A stretch of DNA of 64,000 nt from Halanaerobium saccharolyticum (GCF_004362045.1 NZ_SNWX01000008.1:1-64000), one strand, 5' to 3'; positions 36,473-46,852 are shown, counted from the stretch's first letter. Numbers and translations are program-made. Notes: generated by a model not told the origin, from the letters alone.

Positions 36473-37024
36473 ATGAATAAAATTAAACTTTCAAAAACAG
36501 TTTCCTATATCTTACGCCATCATCCTGAATCTTTTGATTTAAAACTTGCTGCAGATGCTACAGTTAAAACAGATGATCTTTTAGCTGCTCTGCAGAAGAA
36601 ATTTAAGGATATCTCTAAAGCTGATCTGGTGGAACTGGTAGAAAATGATGCTAAAGGTCGTTTCAGCTTTTTAGATGAGCAGGAAAGAATAAGAGCCAAT
36701 TACGGGCACAGTATTGAAGGAGTCAATCCAGATTATGAGGCTGTAAAGCCACCTGAGTATCTCTATCACGGAACAACACCTGAAGTTAAAAACAAAATTT
36801 TAGCTTCAGGGATCAAGCCAATGGGCAGAAATTATGTCCACTTAAGTGTTGGTGTCAAAGAGGCAAAAAAAGTGGCCCGAAGGAGAACAAATCAGCCGGT
36901 GATTTTTAATATAGAAGCTCTGAGAGCTTTTCACGAAGGACAGAATTTTTATAAAACTGCAGAAGATATTTATCTGACAGATCAGCTTTCTGCAGACTAT
37001 TTATCATTATTAAATAACAAATAG
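36473..37024 (+). CDS. kptA: RNA 2'-phosphotransferase (Tpt1/KptA)
   Basis: The 183-residue enzyme removes an internal 2'-phosphate from RNA using NAD+, giving ADP-ribose 1'',2''-cyclic phosphate. It has the KptA blocks LSKTVSYILRHHPE, GRFSF, YHGT, NYVHLS and PVIFNIEA. In bacteria the natural substrate is uncertain. GGGTGAAATC precedes the ATG. No tRNA ligase is nearby. Confidence 0.93.
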   Translation: MNKIKLSKTVSYILRHHPESFDLKLAADATVKTDDLLAALQKKFKDISKADLVELVENDAKGRFSFLDEQERIRANYGHSIEGVNPDYEAVKPPEYLYHGTTPEVKNKILASGIKPMGRNYVHLSVGVKEAKKVARRRTNQPVIFNIEALRAFHEGQNFYKTAEDIYLTDQLSADYLSLLNNK

Positions 37025-39732: not shown

Positions 39733-39761
39733 TTTACAAATTAATATTCTAATGATAAACT
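39733..39761 (+). promoter_or_regulatory. Sigma-A-type promoter of the ATP-grasp operon
   Basis: TTTACA (39733-39738) and TAAACT (39756-39761) are separated by 17 bp, 78 bp before the start codon. Confidence 0.6.
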
Positions 39762-39838
39762 TATGTATATATTATTAAGAATAATTATGAATTTGAAAAT
39801 GAGAAGTAGAGTAGAAGAGTAAAGAAAGGAATGATTTT

Positions 39839-40999
39839 ATGAATTTTATATTTTTATCACCTTATTTTCCAAACAATTTCTATAATTTTTGTGTGGAACT
39901 TAATAAGGCTGGTGTCAATGTACTTGGTGTTGGTGATTTAGCATATGAGGAATTGAGAACTGAACTTAAGGATTCACTAACAGAATATTACAGAGTTGAT
40001 GATATGGAGGACTATTCTCAGCTGCTTAAAGCCTGTGGATATTTCACCCATAAATATGGAAAAATTGATCGCATTGAATCTCATAACGAACACTGGTTGG
40101 AAACTGATGCACGCTTAAGAACTGATTTTAATGTTGAAGGTTTAAAAATCGATGAAATTGAACCTATGAAATATAAATCAAAGATGAAAGAGGTCTTTAA
40201 TCAGGCTGGTTTAAACACAGCCCGCGGTAAGGTTATTGATAATCTGGAAGAAGCAGAAGAATTTATTGCAGAAGTTGATTATCCTGTTGTTGTTAAACCA
40301 GATAATGGAGTTGGAGCAGTTGATACCTATAAAATCAACAACCATGAGCAGTTAGTAGATTTTATTGAAAGTAAATTAGACCTTGATTATATAATGGAAG
40401 AATATATTGAGGGTAAAATCTACACCTTTGATGGTCTGACAGATGGAGAGGGAAATATTGTTTTCTCATCCTCAATGACTTACAAAGGTGGAATAATGGA
40501 AACTGTTAATGAAGGACTTGATATGTATTACTATATACCAAGAGAGCTGCCAGAAGATATAGTAGAAGTCGGAATGAAAACAGCTGAAGCATTTGAGCTT
40601 AAAGAAAGATTTTTTCACTTTGAATATTTTAAGCTTGATGATGGAAGAATTGTTGCTCTGGAAGTCAATGTGAGGCCTCCCGGAGGCTTGACCCTTGATA
40701 TGTTTAATTATGCTAATGATATAAATATCTATAGAGGTTATGCTAAATTGATTGCTCACGGCAGTTTTGATCAGGATATAAGCAGAAAATACAACTGTTT
40801 TTATGTCGGCCGCAAAAACTTTATCAATTATAAGCATTCTCTAAAAGATATTATATATAATTATGGTGAATATATAGTTTTACATGAAGCTATTTCTCCT
40901 ATCTTAGCTCCAGCAATTGGAGATTATGGTATAATTTTAAGAACTGAGAAGCTTGAGCAGGGTAAAGAAGCTGTTCAATATGCGGTAGAAAAAGTATAA
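39839..40999 (+). CDS. ATP-grasp ligase of unknown substrate
   Basis: The 386-residue enzyme has a pre-ATP-grasp Rossmann-like part (1-108), then the ATP-grasp core: K153 in VVVKPDNGVGA, the hinge EEYIEGKIYTFDG and metal ligands E275/N277 in ALEVNVRPPGG. Such enzymes join a carboxylate to an amine or thiol through an acyl phosphate. The acceptor is unknown. AAAGGAA precedes the ATG. Two esterase genes follow (gaps of 30 and 71 bp), so the ligated product may be an ester or peptide processed by them. I did not recognise a named pathway. Confidence 0.85.
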   Translation: MNFIFLSPYFPNNFYNFCVELNKAGVNVLGVGDLAYEELRTELKDSLTEYYRVDDMEDYSQLLKACGYFTHKYGKIDRIESHNEHWLETDARLRTDFNVEGLKIDEIEPMKYKSKMKEVFNQAGLNTARGKVIDNLEEAEEFIAEVDYPVVVKPDNGVGAVDTYKINNHEQLVDFIESKLDLDYIMEEYIEGKIYTFDGLTDGEGNIVFSSSMTYKGGIMETVNEGLDMYYYIPRELPEDIVEVGMKTAEAFELKERFFHFEYFKLDDGRIVALEVNVRPPGGLTLDMFNYANDINIYRGYAKLIAHGSFDQDISRKYNCFYVGRKNFINYKHSLKDIIYNYGEYIVLHEAISPILAPAIGDYGIILRTEKLEQGKEAVQYAVEKV

Positions 41000-41029
41000 T
41001 GATAGTTAAAGAAGAAAGTAGGTAATATT

Positions 41030-41779
41030 ATGAAAGTAGAATACAGAAATTTTTATAGTTCAAATTTAAATAGAGAAATGCCTTTTAAAATTTATGGACA
41101 TGCAGGTAAACCAATGCTTGTCTTTCCTTCATCTGGAGGCAGTTTTCATGAATATGAAGACTTTGGTATGATTGATGCCATCTGGCCCTTTATAGAAAAT
41201 GTTGAGATAACAGTCTATGCAGCCAGCAGTGTTGATTCTAATTCCTGGCTTGATTTTAATCTGCATTCACATGATAAAGCAGTAATCCATAACAACTATG
41301 ATCGGTATATTGTTGATGAGCTGCTGCCTTTTATCAAATATCACTCTGACTGGCAGGGTGGATTAATTAGCAGTGGTTGCAGTATGGGTGCCTATCATGC
41401 AGTTAATTTTTACTTTAAGCATCCAGATGTTTTTGATACAGCTGTGGCATTAAGTGGTATTTATGATGCCAGATTTTTTACTGGAGGCTATATGGATACA
41501 GAAATCTATTTGAATTCTCCGGTTGATTACGTAAAAGAACTGGAAGATGAATGGTATTTAAACCACTATCGGAACAACAAGCTGATTATCTGTGCCGGTC
41601 AGGGCAGGTGGGAAGAAGATACTTTAAGAGATACCAGACTATTGGACACAGTTCTGGCAGAAAAAAATATTCCTGCCTGGTTTGACTACTGGGGTTATGA
41701 TGTTGATCATGACTGGACAGGCTGGAGAGAGCAGATGCCTTACTTTTTGGGGAAACTTAAAGAGAGTGGTATTATTTAA
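41030..41779 (+). CDS. Esterase-D-like alpha/beta hydrolase
   Basis: The 249-residue hydrolase has FPSSGGSFHEYED, nucleophile Ser118 in GCSMGAYHA and a candidate catalytic His near 223 in DVDHDWTGW. It is a PHB-depolymerase/esterase-D-type fold without a signal peptide. It sits 30 bp behind the ATP-grasp gene behind AAGTAGG and is probably part of the same pathway. The substrate is unknown. Confidence 0.85.
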   Translation: MKVEYRNFYSSNLNREMPFKIYGHAGKPMLVFPSSGGSFHEYEDFGMIDAIWPFIENVEITVYAASSVDSNSWLDFNLHSHDKAVIHNNYDRYIVDELLPFIKYHSDWQGGLISSGCSMGAYHAVNFYFKHPDVFDTAVALSGIYDARFFTGGYMDTEIYLNSPVDYVKELEDEWYLNHYRNNKLIICAGQGRWEEDTLRDTRLLDTVLAEKNIPAWFDYWGYDVDHDWTGWREQMPYFLGKLKESGII

Positions 41780-41850
41780 CTTAATCTAAATTAATAGGGT
41801 TATTAAATGCTGAAAAAATAGTTGATAATTGCTGACAGAGGAGTTTATGA

Positions 41851-42894
41851 ATGCTAAAAGAAAAGATAGATATTAAAATCATAAAAGACTTTTATTCTGA
41901 GGTATTAAAAAACAAAAGAAAGATTAGAATTTATTTACCTCCTTCTTATTCGACTGAAAAGAATAAGTATTATCCAGTTTTATATGTCCACGATGGCCAG
42001 AATGTTTTTGAAGGCAAAAAATCTTATTCAGGCGAATCCTGGAATCTCCATCAGGTGACAGAACAGTTAATCAGAGAAAATTTGATAGAAGAAATCATAA
42101 TTGTGGCTGTGGATAATATGGAAGAAGAGAGATTAAGTGAATATGCTCATCAGGATGGATTTTTTAAGGGTGAAAAAATTAAAGGGCGCGGTTTTGATTA
42201 CGAAAAGTTTTTAATCAGAGAATTGATGCCTTTTATAGCAGAAGAATATAGAATTAAAGAAGGGTCAGAAAACACAGGTTTAATGGGGTCTTCAATGGGA
42301 GGTCTGGTTACTTTTAATATAGGTTTAAGAAGATCAGATTTGTTCTCAAAACTGGCAGTAATGTCACCTTCTCTCTGGTGGGGAAAGAGTTCTCCCCTGG
42401 AAAAAATTAATTCCTATGATTATCAAAGCTTAAACTCCCAAATCTGGCTGGATACCGGTGAGGCTGAGGGTAAGTTTATGTCTTTTACAGAAGATGTAAT
42501 TTATGAACTAAAGTATTTAAAAAATAATTTAAAACTGGATTTAATCTATTATCAGGTTCCTGAGGCTATTCACAGCGAAACAGCCTGGGCGGCTCGAGTC
42601 CACTGCCCCTTACTTTATTTTTATGGTGACACTGGAGAAGTTAAAGAAATTGAATTAATTGGCAGTGAAAAAATAACTCTTAAGGGTGTAAAAGAAAGAA
42701 TTAATCCTGTACTTACTTTTGACAGTGCTTTTAAAATGACAGCTTTAGAAGGAGAATTTAGATCACTTAAACCAGAAATTTTGAAAATTAATGAAAACGG
42801 TGTTTTAACTCCCAGAAAAACGGGATCAGCAGAAATCGAATTTATTGTTTTTGGTTATAAGGCTTCTAAAAATATTAAAATAGTAAATAAATAA
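41851..42894 (+). CDS. Esterase-D-like hydrolase with C-terminal Ig-like tail
   Basis: The 347-residue protein has an esterase (PF00756-type) domain: RIYLPPSYS, LYVHDGQNVF, Ser148 in GSSMGG and a catalytic His near 236 in AIHSETAW. Residues 270-347 form a beta-rich segment resembling bacterial Ig-like (Big_2) domains, with LKINENGVLTPRKTGSAEI as the signature. Big domains usually occur in exported proteins, yet there is no signal peptide here. GAGGAG precedes the ATG. It ends the ATP-grasp operon before a strong terminator. Confidence 0.85.
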   Translation: MLKEKIDIKIIKDFYSEVLKNKRKIRIYLPPSYSTEKNKYYPVLYVHDGQNVFEGKKSYSGESWNLHQVTEQLIRENLIEEIIIVAVDNMEEERLSEYAHQDGFFKGEKIKGRGFDYEKFLIRELMPFIAEEYRIKEGSENTGLMGSSMGGLVTFNIGLRRSDLFSKLAVMSPSLWWGKSSPLEKINSYDYQSLNSQIWLDTGEAEGKFMSFTEDVIYELKYLKNNLKLDLIYYQVPEAIHSETAWAARVHCPLLYFYGDTGEVKEIELIGSEKITLKGVKERINPVLTFDSAFKMTALEGEFRSLKPEILKINENGVLTPRKTGSAEIEFIVFGYKASKNIKIVNK

Positions 42895-42910
42895 AACCGG
42901 ATAGATGATA

Positions 42911-42973
42911 TGTCCCCCTTTCTAATAGGCAGATTAAATTATAAAAATCTGTTCTATCAGAAAGGGGTTTTTA
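42911..42973. terminator. Bidirectional terminator after the esterase operon
   Basis: CCCCTTTCTAATAG pairs with CTATCAGAAAGGGG (one bulge), enclosing a smaller AGATT/AATCT stem. TTTTT follows on the plus strand. It also serves the convergent nitroreductase gene. Confidence 0.75.
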
Positions 42974-45724: not shown

Positions 45725-46852
45725 GTGATTTTTGAATATGAAAAGATTTTCTCAAACTTATATGAAATTATTTTTGTATTAACAATGGGTATCGCAACAG
45801 CAGTTGCCTTTGCCACTGGGGGAAGTACTATCAAATCAGCAATTGGAACACCTTATCTGGCAAATACTATTGCTATAGCAGTTGTTATATTTCTGCTGAC
45901 AATTTTTGGGGCTAAACTGGTACGCGAATTTGCCACTTATATAGGAATTGCAATTATTATTGGAGTAATATCTACAGTAGTAAATTTTGTTTTTGGAGGA
46001 GTAAAGAGAATTATTTCCTGGTGGACAAATGATAATACTGGCCGCAGTCATTCAATAATTGCTTCAATTATTTTTGTACTGATTACCTGGTCTATTGCCC
46101 GTTTTGGTTTAATTCCTTTAGTTGCCAGAGGATATGGTTTTTTAGGTTATTTAGGAATACCGATGCTGATCTTACCAGTTTTTTATAAGCTGATTAAAAG
46201 AAAATTAGGTGGCTCAGTCACAGCTATAAGCATGGGTCCCCAAAGAGCAGAATCTGCTTTGAAAGAGGCGGCAAGGGGAGCAGATAATGTTTTCTTATTA
46301 ACTGATAATAATTTTGCAGGTGCTGATACAATTGCAACTTCAGGTGTTCTGGCTGCAGCCGCAGGAAAATTGGTTGATTTTGATTTAATTATTGCCGGTG
46401 AGATGAGTGTTGATGGTGATACTGCTCAAGTTGGTCCTCAAACTGCAGAGTTTTTAGATATCAATCATGCGGCTTATGTAAGTGATATAACTTCAGTCTC
46501 CGAAAATGCGATTACTGTTACTACTTCTCTCTGGGAAGCTAATTATAAGAAAGTTTTTAATTATCCGCTGCTGCTTACAGTAACTAAGGATCTTAATGAT
46601 CCTCGACTGCCCTCATTTAAAGATAAGATGAGAGCCAGAAAAATTGAAGTGAAAAAATTTGATCTTGAAGCAATAAAAGATCAGCTTCAGCTCAAAGAGG
46701 TTGGATTTAAGGGTTCTCCAACCTGGGTTGAAAATATTGTTGTACCTCAAAAAATTGAAAGAAAAGTTAAAGTATATAATAAAGATGAGACAGAAAAGGC
46801 TATTGCTGATTTAAAAGAAATACTAAAAGCTAAAAATTTGATGGAGGCTTAA
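45725..46852 (+). pseudogene. Chimera of a YkvI-like membrane protein and EtfB
   Basis: The frame of 375 codons begins with about 155 residues of membrane segments resembling a YkvI-type transporter that lacks its own start. It then continues in frame into the C-terminal three quarters of electron transfer flavoprotein beta (GGSVTAISMGP, ADTIATS, DGDTAQVGPQTAE, PLLLTVTKDLNDPR). EtfB's first 55 or so residues are missing. The junction lies near 46190-46210. The GTG start has no ribosome site. A stub of etfA follows, so the ETF is certainly non-functional here. Confidence 0.75.

Follow-up and report, generated by a model that had tools for sequence, protein, structure and literature searches.

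A recurrent ATP-grasp ligase and PF00756 esterase gene unit in Halanaerobium saccharolyticum and other bacteria, with a possible role in a small-molecule pathway

What might an ATP-grasp enzyme and two esterases, transcribed together in a salt-loving bacterium, be making or taking apart? The genes in question lie in a stretch of 64,000 nucleotides from Halanaerobium saccharolyticum (the whole of the DNA analysed, referred to below as the window), where the operon spans positions 39733–42973 from promoter to terminator. All three are on the + strand: ATPg (386 aa, 39839–40999) is followed by EstA (249 aa, 41030–41779) and EstB (347 aa, 41851–42894), with intergenic gaps of 30 and 71 bp. The gene upstream, for an NhaC-type antiporter, and the gene downstream, for a nitroreductase, are both on the opposite strand, therefore the operon holds exactly three genes. 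Pfam matches above cut-off for these ORFs agree with the original prediction that an ATP-grasp enzyme and two esterases share one operon, and purifying selection on each of the genes is strong (dN 0.07–0.20 versus dS 0.9–1.75). Annotation is generic: ATPg is only an 'ATP-grasp domain-containing protein' and the hydrolases are 'alpha/beta hydrolase-fold protein'.

A single promoter and a single terminator had been predicted to enclose the enzymes, and both elements hold up, the former by a footprint in 10 relatives and the latter by its folding (–24.7 kcal/mol, z –4.63). The putative promoter, TTTACA-N17-TAAACT with a TG-extended –10 (TGATAAACT), occupies 39733–39761 on the + strand. As a bare pattern it is not above chance, with 25 sites found by a consensus scan versus 30 expected. 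In the alignment of 11 upstream regions (the window and 10 relatives), however, there is no variation in TTTACA, in its spacing or in most of TGATAAAAT, which leaves an invariant –35, a near-invariant –10 and a fixed spacing. Because of this conserved block, and despite the uninformative consensus scan, we consider the promoter very likely to be real. Just downstream of the –10, the palindrome ATTATT-AAG-AATAAT (39771–39785, no strand) may tentatively be taken as a candidate operator for a regulator; it is AT-rich, and a TTATTAATAATTAT-like stretch is present in most of the aligned relatives. The intrinsic terminator (42915–42973, + strand) is strong and consists of a long hairpin (42915–42967) and TTTTT. 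No Rfam riboswitch or leader element was found at the operon; a mir-29 match (E 0.032, below the gathering score) is the terminator hairpin read on the other strand, and an RNA leader was rejected.

The grouping is not peculiar to Halanaerobium. When 84,980 species genomes were scanned with an ATPg profile, at least 570 stretches with relatives came back; the best 80 were examined and, together with four distant Bacillota loci, form a set of 84. In this set, where the 80 are the closest relatives rather than a random sample and many are MAG contigs, 62 loci contain EstA as well as ATPg, and the two are nearly always direct neighbours with the same orientation. The loci come from about ten phyla, including Bacillota, Thermodesulfobacteriota, Chloroflexota, Pseudomonadota, Bacteroidota, Myxococcota, Deinococcota and candidate phyla, so that the neighbourhood search proposed with the original prediction did return co-occurrence. 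Gene order is variable (ATPg-EstA, EstA-ATPg, EstB-EstA-ATPg, ATPg-ATPg-EstA and ATPg-EstA-ATPg were all seen), and the adjacency of ATPg and EstA has therefore re-formed or been kept by selection. The EstA frame is broken in several loci (L020, L062, L086), possibly through assembly errors.

Co-occurrence across whole genomes, a statistic obtained for Bacillota only, points the same way. Among 398 evenly drawn Bacillota genomes, 13 contain ATPg and 10 contain EstA; each of the 10 EstA genomes also has ATPg (hypergeometric P 1.2e–17), and in all 10 the genes adjoin. Even where ATPg has no adjoining EstA, EstA is found elsewhere in 17 of 23 genomes, several of which carry it in a second locus of the form ATPg2-EstA or EstB-EstA-ATPg2. 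The other 6 of the 23 have ATPg with no detectable EstA; some of these are incomplete MAGs and two carry EstB instead. No fourth conserved family emerged when neighbouring genes of 80 aa or more within 8 kb were clustered, and the co-directional neighbours of ATPg vary from locus to locus. ATPg and EstA are thus a near-obligate unit, their partnership is selected and the module is well supported, while EstB, as a third member, is recurrent yet optional.

Confinement of the trio to one genome, which the original prediction had counted against itself, was not what we observed: EstB stands next to ATPg or EstA, in varying order, in about seven lineages. It does so in all complete Halanaerobiaceae loci, in Lachnospiraceae-type genomes (EstB-EstA-ATPg2), in an Erysipelotrichaceae MAG (ATPg-EstA-EstB) and in Tetragenococcus, where it is convergent with its neighbour, ATPg or EstA. 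Two deltaproteobacterial (Geobacteraceae-type) MAGs have ATPg-EstB and no EstA in the genome. By a rough estimate from 33 compared genomes, fewer than 0.1 cases of such adjacency are expected by chance versus eight seen. Most ATPg-EstA pairs nevertheless lack EstB alongside. Another arrangement was noticed in Acidaminobacter (ATPg2-EstB) and Tyzzerella (EstB-ATPg2-EstB), where a second ATPg paralogue is paired with EstB and not with EstA (L239, 382–2743, and L240, 5635–8775); a single genome would then hold two pairs of ligase and esterase.

The history of the unit was assessed on a FastTree phylogeny of ATPg, which shows 20 changes of phylum label versus a minimum of 9 and versus 46 in shuffles. 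On this tree the phyla are mixed beyond vertical descent, with the labels still clustered. Distances of ATPg and EstA co-vary strongly (Mantel r 0.88, reached in 0 of 2000 permutations), partly as a reflection of shared species history. Distribution is patchy even within the host's own genus, as two near-complete genomes of that genus (G205, G209) have no ATPg. The unit is rare on plasmids, and the sole phage-labelled occurrences are three unannotated faecal 'phage' contigs of 5–8 kb. A role in phage or mobile-element defence was rejected, since no match to PADLOC-DB was obtained at E 0.01 and no relative was found in viral contigs.

Which reaction the ligase catalyses is narrowed by its relatives. 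ATPg belongs to Pfam ATP-grasp_4 (2e–12, above cut-off), and several generic ATP-grasp models passed as well, yet it reaches no NCBIfam cut-off, including those for carbamoyl phosphate synthetase (CPS), D-Ala ligase, PurK, BacD and cyanophycin synthetase. The scores are far off: 34 bits of 1027 for CPSaseII and 30.6 of 245.65 for D_ala_D_alaTIGR, by which we reject both CPS and D-Ala-D-Ala ligase. The clear identity with a known enzyme of this kind that the original prediction had named as its other weak point was accordingly not seen. Closest in structure is RizA, the L-amino acid ligase of rhizocticin biosynthesis in Bacillus subtilis. It is the best solved relative of a profile of 47 ATPg homologues (6e–26, with CPS next at 6e–14), and its structure 4wd3 is the nearest to the AlphaFold model of ATPg (pLDDT 93.5), with TM 0.74 and 19% identity. 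The model matches the ATP-grasp fold over its full length in 4wd3, 3vot and 3wnz (TM 0.73–0.78), and the dipeptide ligases BL00235 (3vot) and BacD/YwfE (3wnz, 3vmm) are the next-best full-length matches; their identity to ATPg is 14–16%, and BacD model NF053745 gives 25.8 bits against a cut-off of 850.

Residues K113, K153, E187, E262, E275, N277 and R279 are invariant in the 47 homologues. Those assigned to ATP, Mg and the acyl phosphate, including the substrate-phosphate Arg, align with RizA, but N277 is Ala there. By fold model and catalytic residues ATPg would thus be L-amino acid ligase-like; the cut-off of the named family is missed, so it cannot be filed as such. RizA is not known to have PF00756 esterases as partners. 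The two enzymes also differ on the substrate side. Variants of RizA at T81, K83 and S84 changed its activity and specificity (PMC9321006). These positions align to N83, H or Y at 85 and W86 of ATPg, where E84 and W86 are invariant in the family, and the resulting motif N83-E84-x-W86 is nearly fixed across phyla and differs from that of RizA. Because this pocket motif is nearly fixed, one substrate is probably common to the ATPg family across phyla.

Both partner proteins belong to the Esterase family PF00756 with scores well above its cut-off of 22 bits (EstA 45.4 bits, 1e–11; EstB 105.6 bits, 5e–30). The EstA model (pLDDT 95.5) has a fold of the feruloyl-esterase, S-formylglutathione-hydrolase and Ag85 kind, with best matches at TM of about 0.75 and 17–18% identity. 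It shares the fold and triad layout of CE1 feruloyl esterases and of S-formylglutathione hydrolase/esterase D (5vol, 7xrt, 3ls2), from which it differs by this low identity and in that no signal peptide or carbohydrate-binding domain is apparent. Among 36 homologues S118 and H227 are invariant and E195 is kept in at least 90%, and by position S118-E195-H227 is the presumed triad. In EstB the corresponding roles may be assigned, also by position, to S148, E206 and H241, which are invariant in 8 sequences; its motifs include DGQN and G-S-S-M-G, the latter with the putative nucleophile, and it matches feruloyl esterase sequences.

Named families are again missed by both. Against TIGR02821 (cut-off 281.7 bits) EstA scores 16.2 bits and EstB 19.9 bits; against PRK10439 (cut-off 222 bits) the values are 17.4 and 40.4. 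EstB shares PF00756 with enterochelin- and bacillibactin-type esterases (Fes, IroE, BES 2qm0) and matches 2qm0 and PRK10439 weakly, but siderophore genes are not conserved beside the ATPg and esterase loci. The Ig-like tail ascribed to EstB survives in part: a Big-like match (PF22359, E 3e–4) is present at the C-terminus, but it scores 21.4 bits versus a cut-off of 27, covers only the 28 residues 303–330 and is conserved in Halanaerobiaceae orthologues alone. It is a local ornament.

How might the enzymes work together? ATPg could activate an amino-acid-like substrate by turning its carboxylate into an acyl phosphate and then, by analogy with RizA and BacD, condense it with an amine to a dipeptide or amide. 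EstA, joined by EstB in some lineages, would act on an ester of the same pathway: an O-acyl or ester group would be cleaved off the precursor or the product, or else transferred. The hydrolase step could be deprotecting, product-releasing or an acyl transfer. In genomes with two ATPg genes, either in tandem or as ATPg1-EstA with ATPg2-EstB, a second ligation might give a tripeptide-like product. None of the three N-termini resembles a signal peptide by eye. Taken together, we lean slightly towards a complete, stand-alone cytosolic module for one small-molecule pathway, with amide formation by a RizA-like ligase and processing of an ester by the hydrolases. Substrate and order of reactions are suggested here by analogy, and trimming of the ligase product by the esterases, as originally proposed, is one possible order among several. 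It should be noted that ATP-grasp enzymes also form esters, thioesters or carbamates and that PF00756 holds acyltransferases and depolymerases besides esterases, so that the families of ATPg, EstA and EstB are compatible with more than one chemistry.

A conjugation-release cycle, in which the ligase attaches an amino acid to a xenobiotic or toxic metabolite as a cap, or keeps the compound in store as a conjugate, and the esterases free it, would make the unit a matter of detoxification or storage and not of biosynthesis. Such a cycle needs little beyond a ligase and hydrolases, which is what the unit contains, with no exporter, regulator or further biosynthetic gene conserved alongside, and the absences within a genus are as expected of an accessory trait. 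We consider it unlikely all the same, as the near-obligate pairing of ligase and hydrolase, together with a ligase pocket that stays fixed from phylum to phylum, points to a single defined substrate and not to broad detoxification, and amides are not usually released by esterases. Doubtful to a similar degree is the possibility that both esterases work as acyltransferases, in the manner of mycolyltransferase Ag85 or homoserine acetyltransferase, so that an acyl group is attached to the ligase product or shifted on it. Ag85 and the PS1/Cmt1 mycolyltransferases are indeed among the fold and profile neighbours; the best matches, however, namely feruloyl esterase 5vol and the S-formylglutathione hydrolases, are hydrolytic enzymes, and no acyl donor enzyme is linked.

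Graspetide clusters also place an ATP-grasp enzyme next to an alpha/beta hydrolase (PMC8939145), and maturation of a RiPP, with ATPg cyclising a ribosomal precursor peptide and the hydrolases processing it, would fit that layout. This is very improbable here: apart from chance-like ORFs of 33–36 aa the operon gaps contain no additional ORF of at least 20 aa, so no plausible precursor is found, clustering of neighbours of 80 aa or more shows only the three families, the ligase is RizA/BacD-like rather than akin to graspetide ATP-grasp enzymes, and neither a transporter nor a leader peptidase is present. That unrelated metabolic genes are co-transcribed by chance in Halanaerobium, a thought prompted by three families that are all large and separately known, is hardly credible and for ATPg and EstA is refuted by adjacency across phyla, co-occurrence (P about 1e–17) and the presence of EstA in trans when it is not adjacent.

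The wider form of the amide-pathway reading goes further. It is an even call whether the unit represents an undescribed, horizontally mobile, cross-phylum pathway, with EstB optional and an ester step included, that yields one specific amide or peptide derived from an amino acid in at least several hundred bacterial species. The ligase-esterase pathway appears to be undescribed: no account of the ATPg-EstA pair was found in open-licence literature, outside of which the survey of ATP-grasp amidoligases by Iyer et al. (2009) could contain it. A two- or three-gene unit with a near-fixed ligase pocket has been kept in about ten phyla, yet its annotation is generic. A shared product, if there is one, would be a widespread and unrecognised bacterial metabolite, and since the unit is small and its enzymes are intact, this product is directly testable in one laboratory host.

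Several neighbouring genes, named mostly by eye, could hint at an amine substrate. An agmatine deiminase-like gene (L041) and an N-carbamoylputrescine amidase-like gene (L037 and L041) lie upstream of ATPg-EstB, an ArgS-like gene follows the unit in L039 and L040, and the antiporter beside the window operon is of the ArcD/NhaC type. These occurrences are too sporadic among loci, and a reading in terms of arginine, agmatine or polyamines was set aside.

More distant ATP-grasp genes were met in other surroundings. On a Massilia plasmid (L141, 5878–9179) an ATPg relative of 35% identity lies behind genes for an aminotransferase and a methyltransferase and has no adjoining EstA; the ligase is related, but the small biosynthetic cluster around it is a different one. 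In genome G421 (L248, 6053–10857) two diverged ATP-grasp genes, scoring 123 and 42 bits with the ATPg profile, lie close together among genes that by eye encode a transporter, a TetR-type regulator and a reductase, possibly another ATP-grasp biosynthetic cluster.

Two further genes of the window deserve mention. At 36473–37024 (+ strand) a bacterial KptA/Tpt1-type RNA 2'-phosphotransferase is encoded (PF01885, 8e–39). At 45725–46852 (+ strand) a truncated piece of a membrane protein, which by eye is YkvI-like, shares a single ORF with an electron transfer flavoprotein domain (PF01012), whereas the counterparts in four relatives are two separate ORFs of about 366–373 aa and about 272–276 aa. 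The fusion appears to have arisen by internal deletions in the window copy, as a real event or an assembly error.
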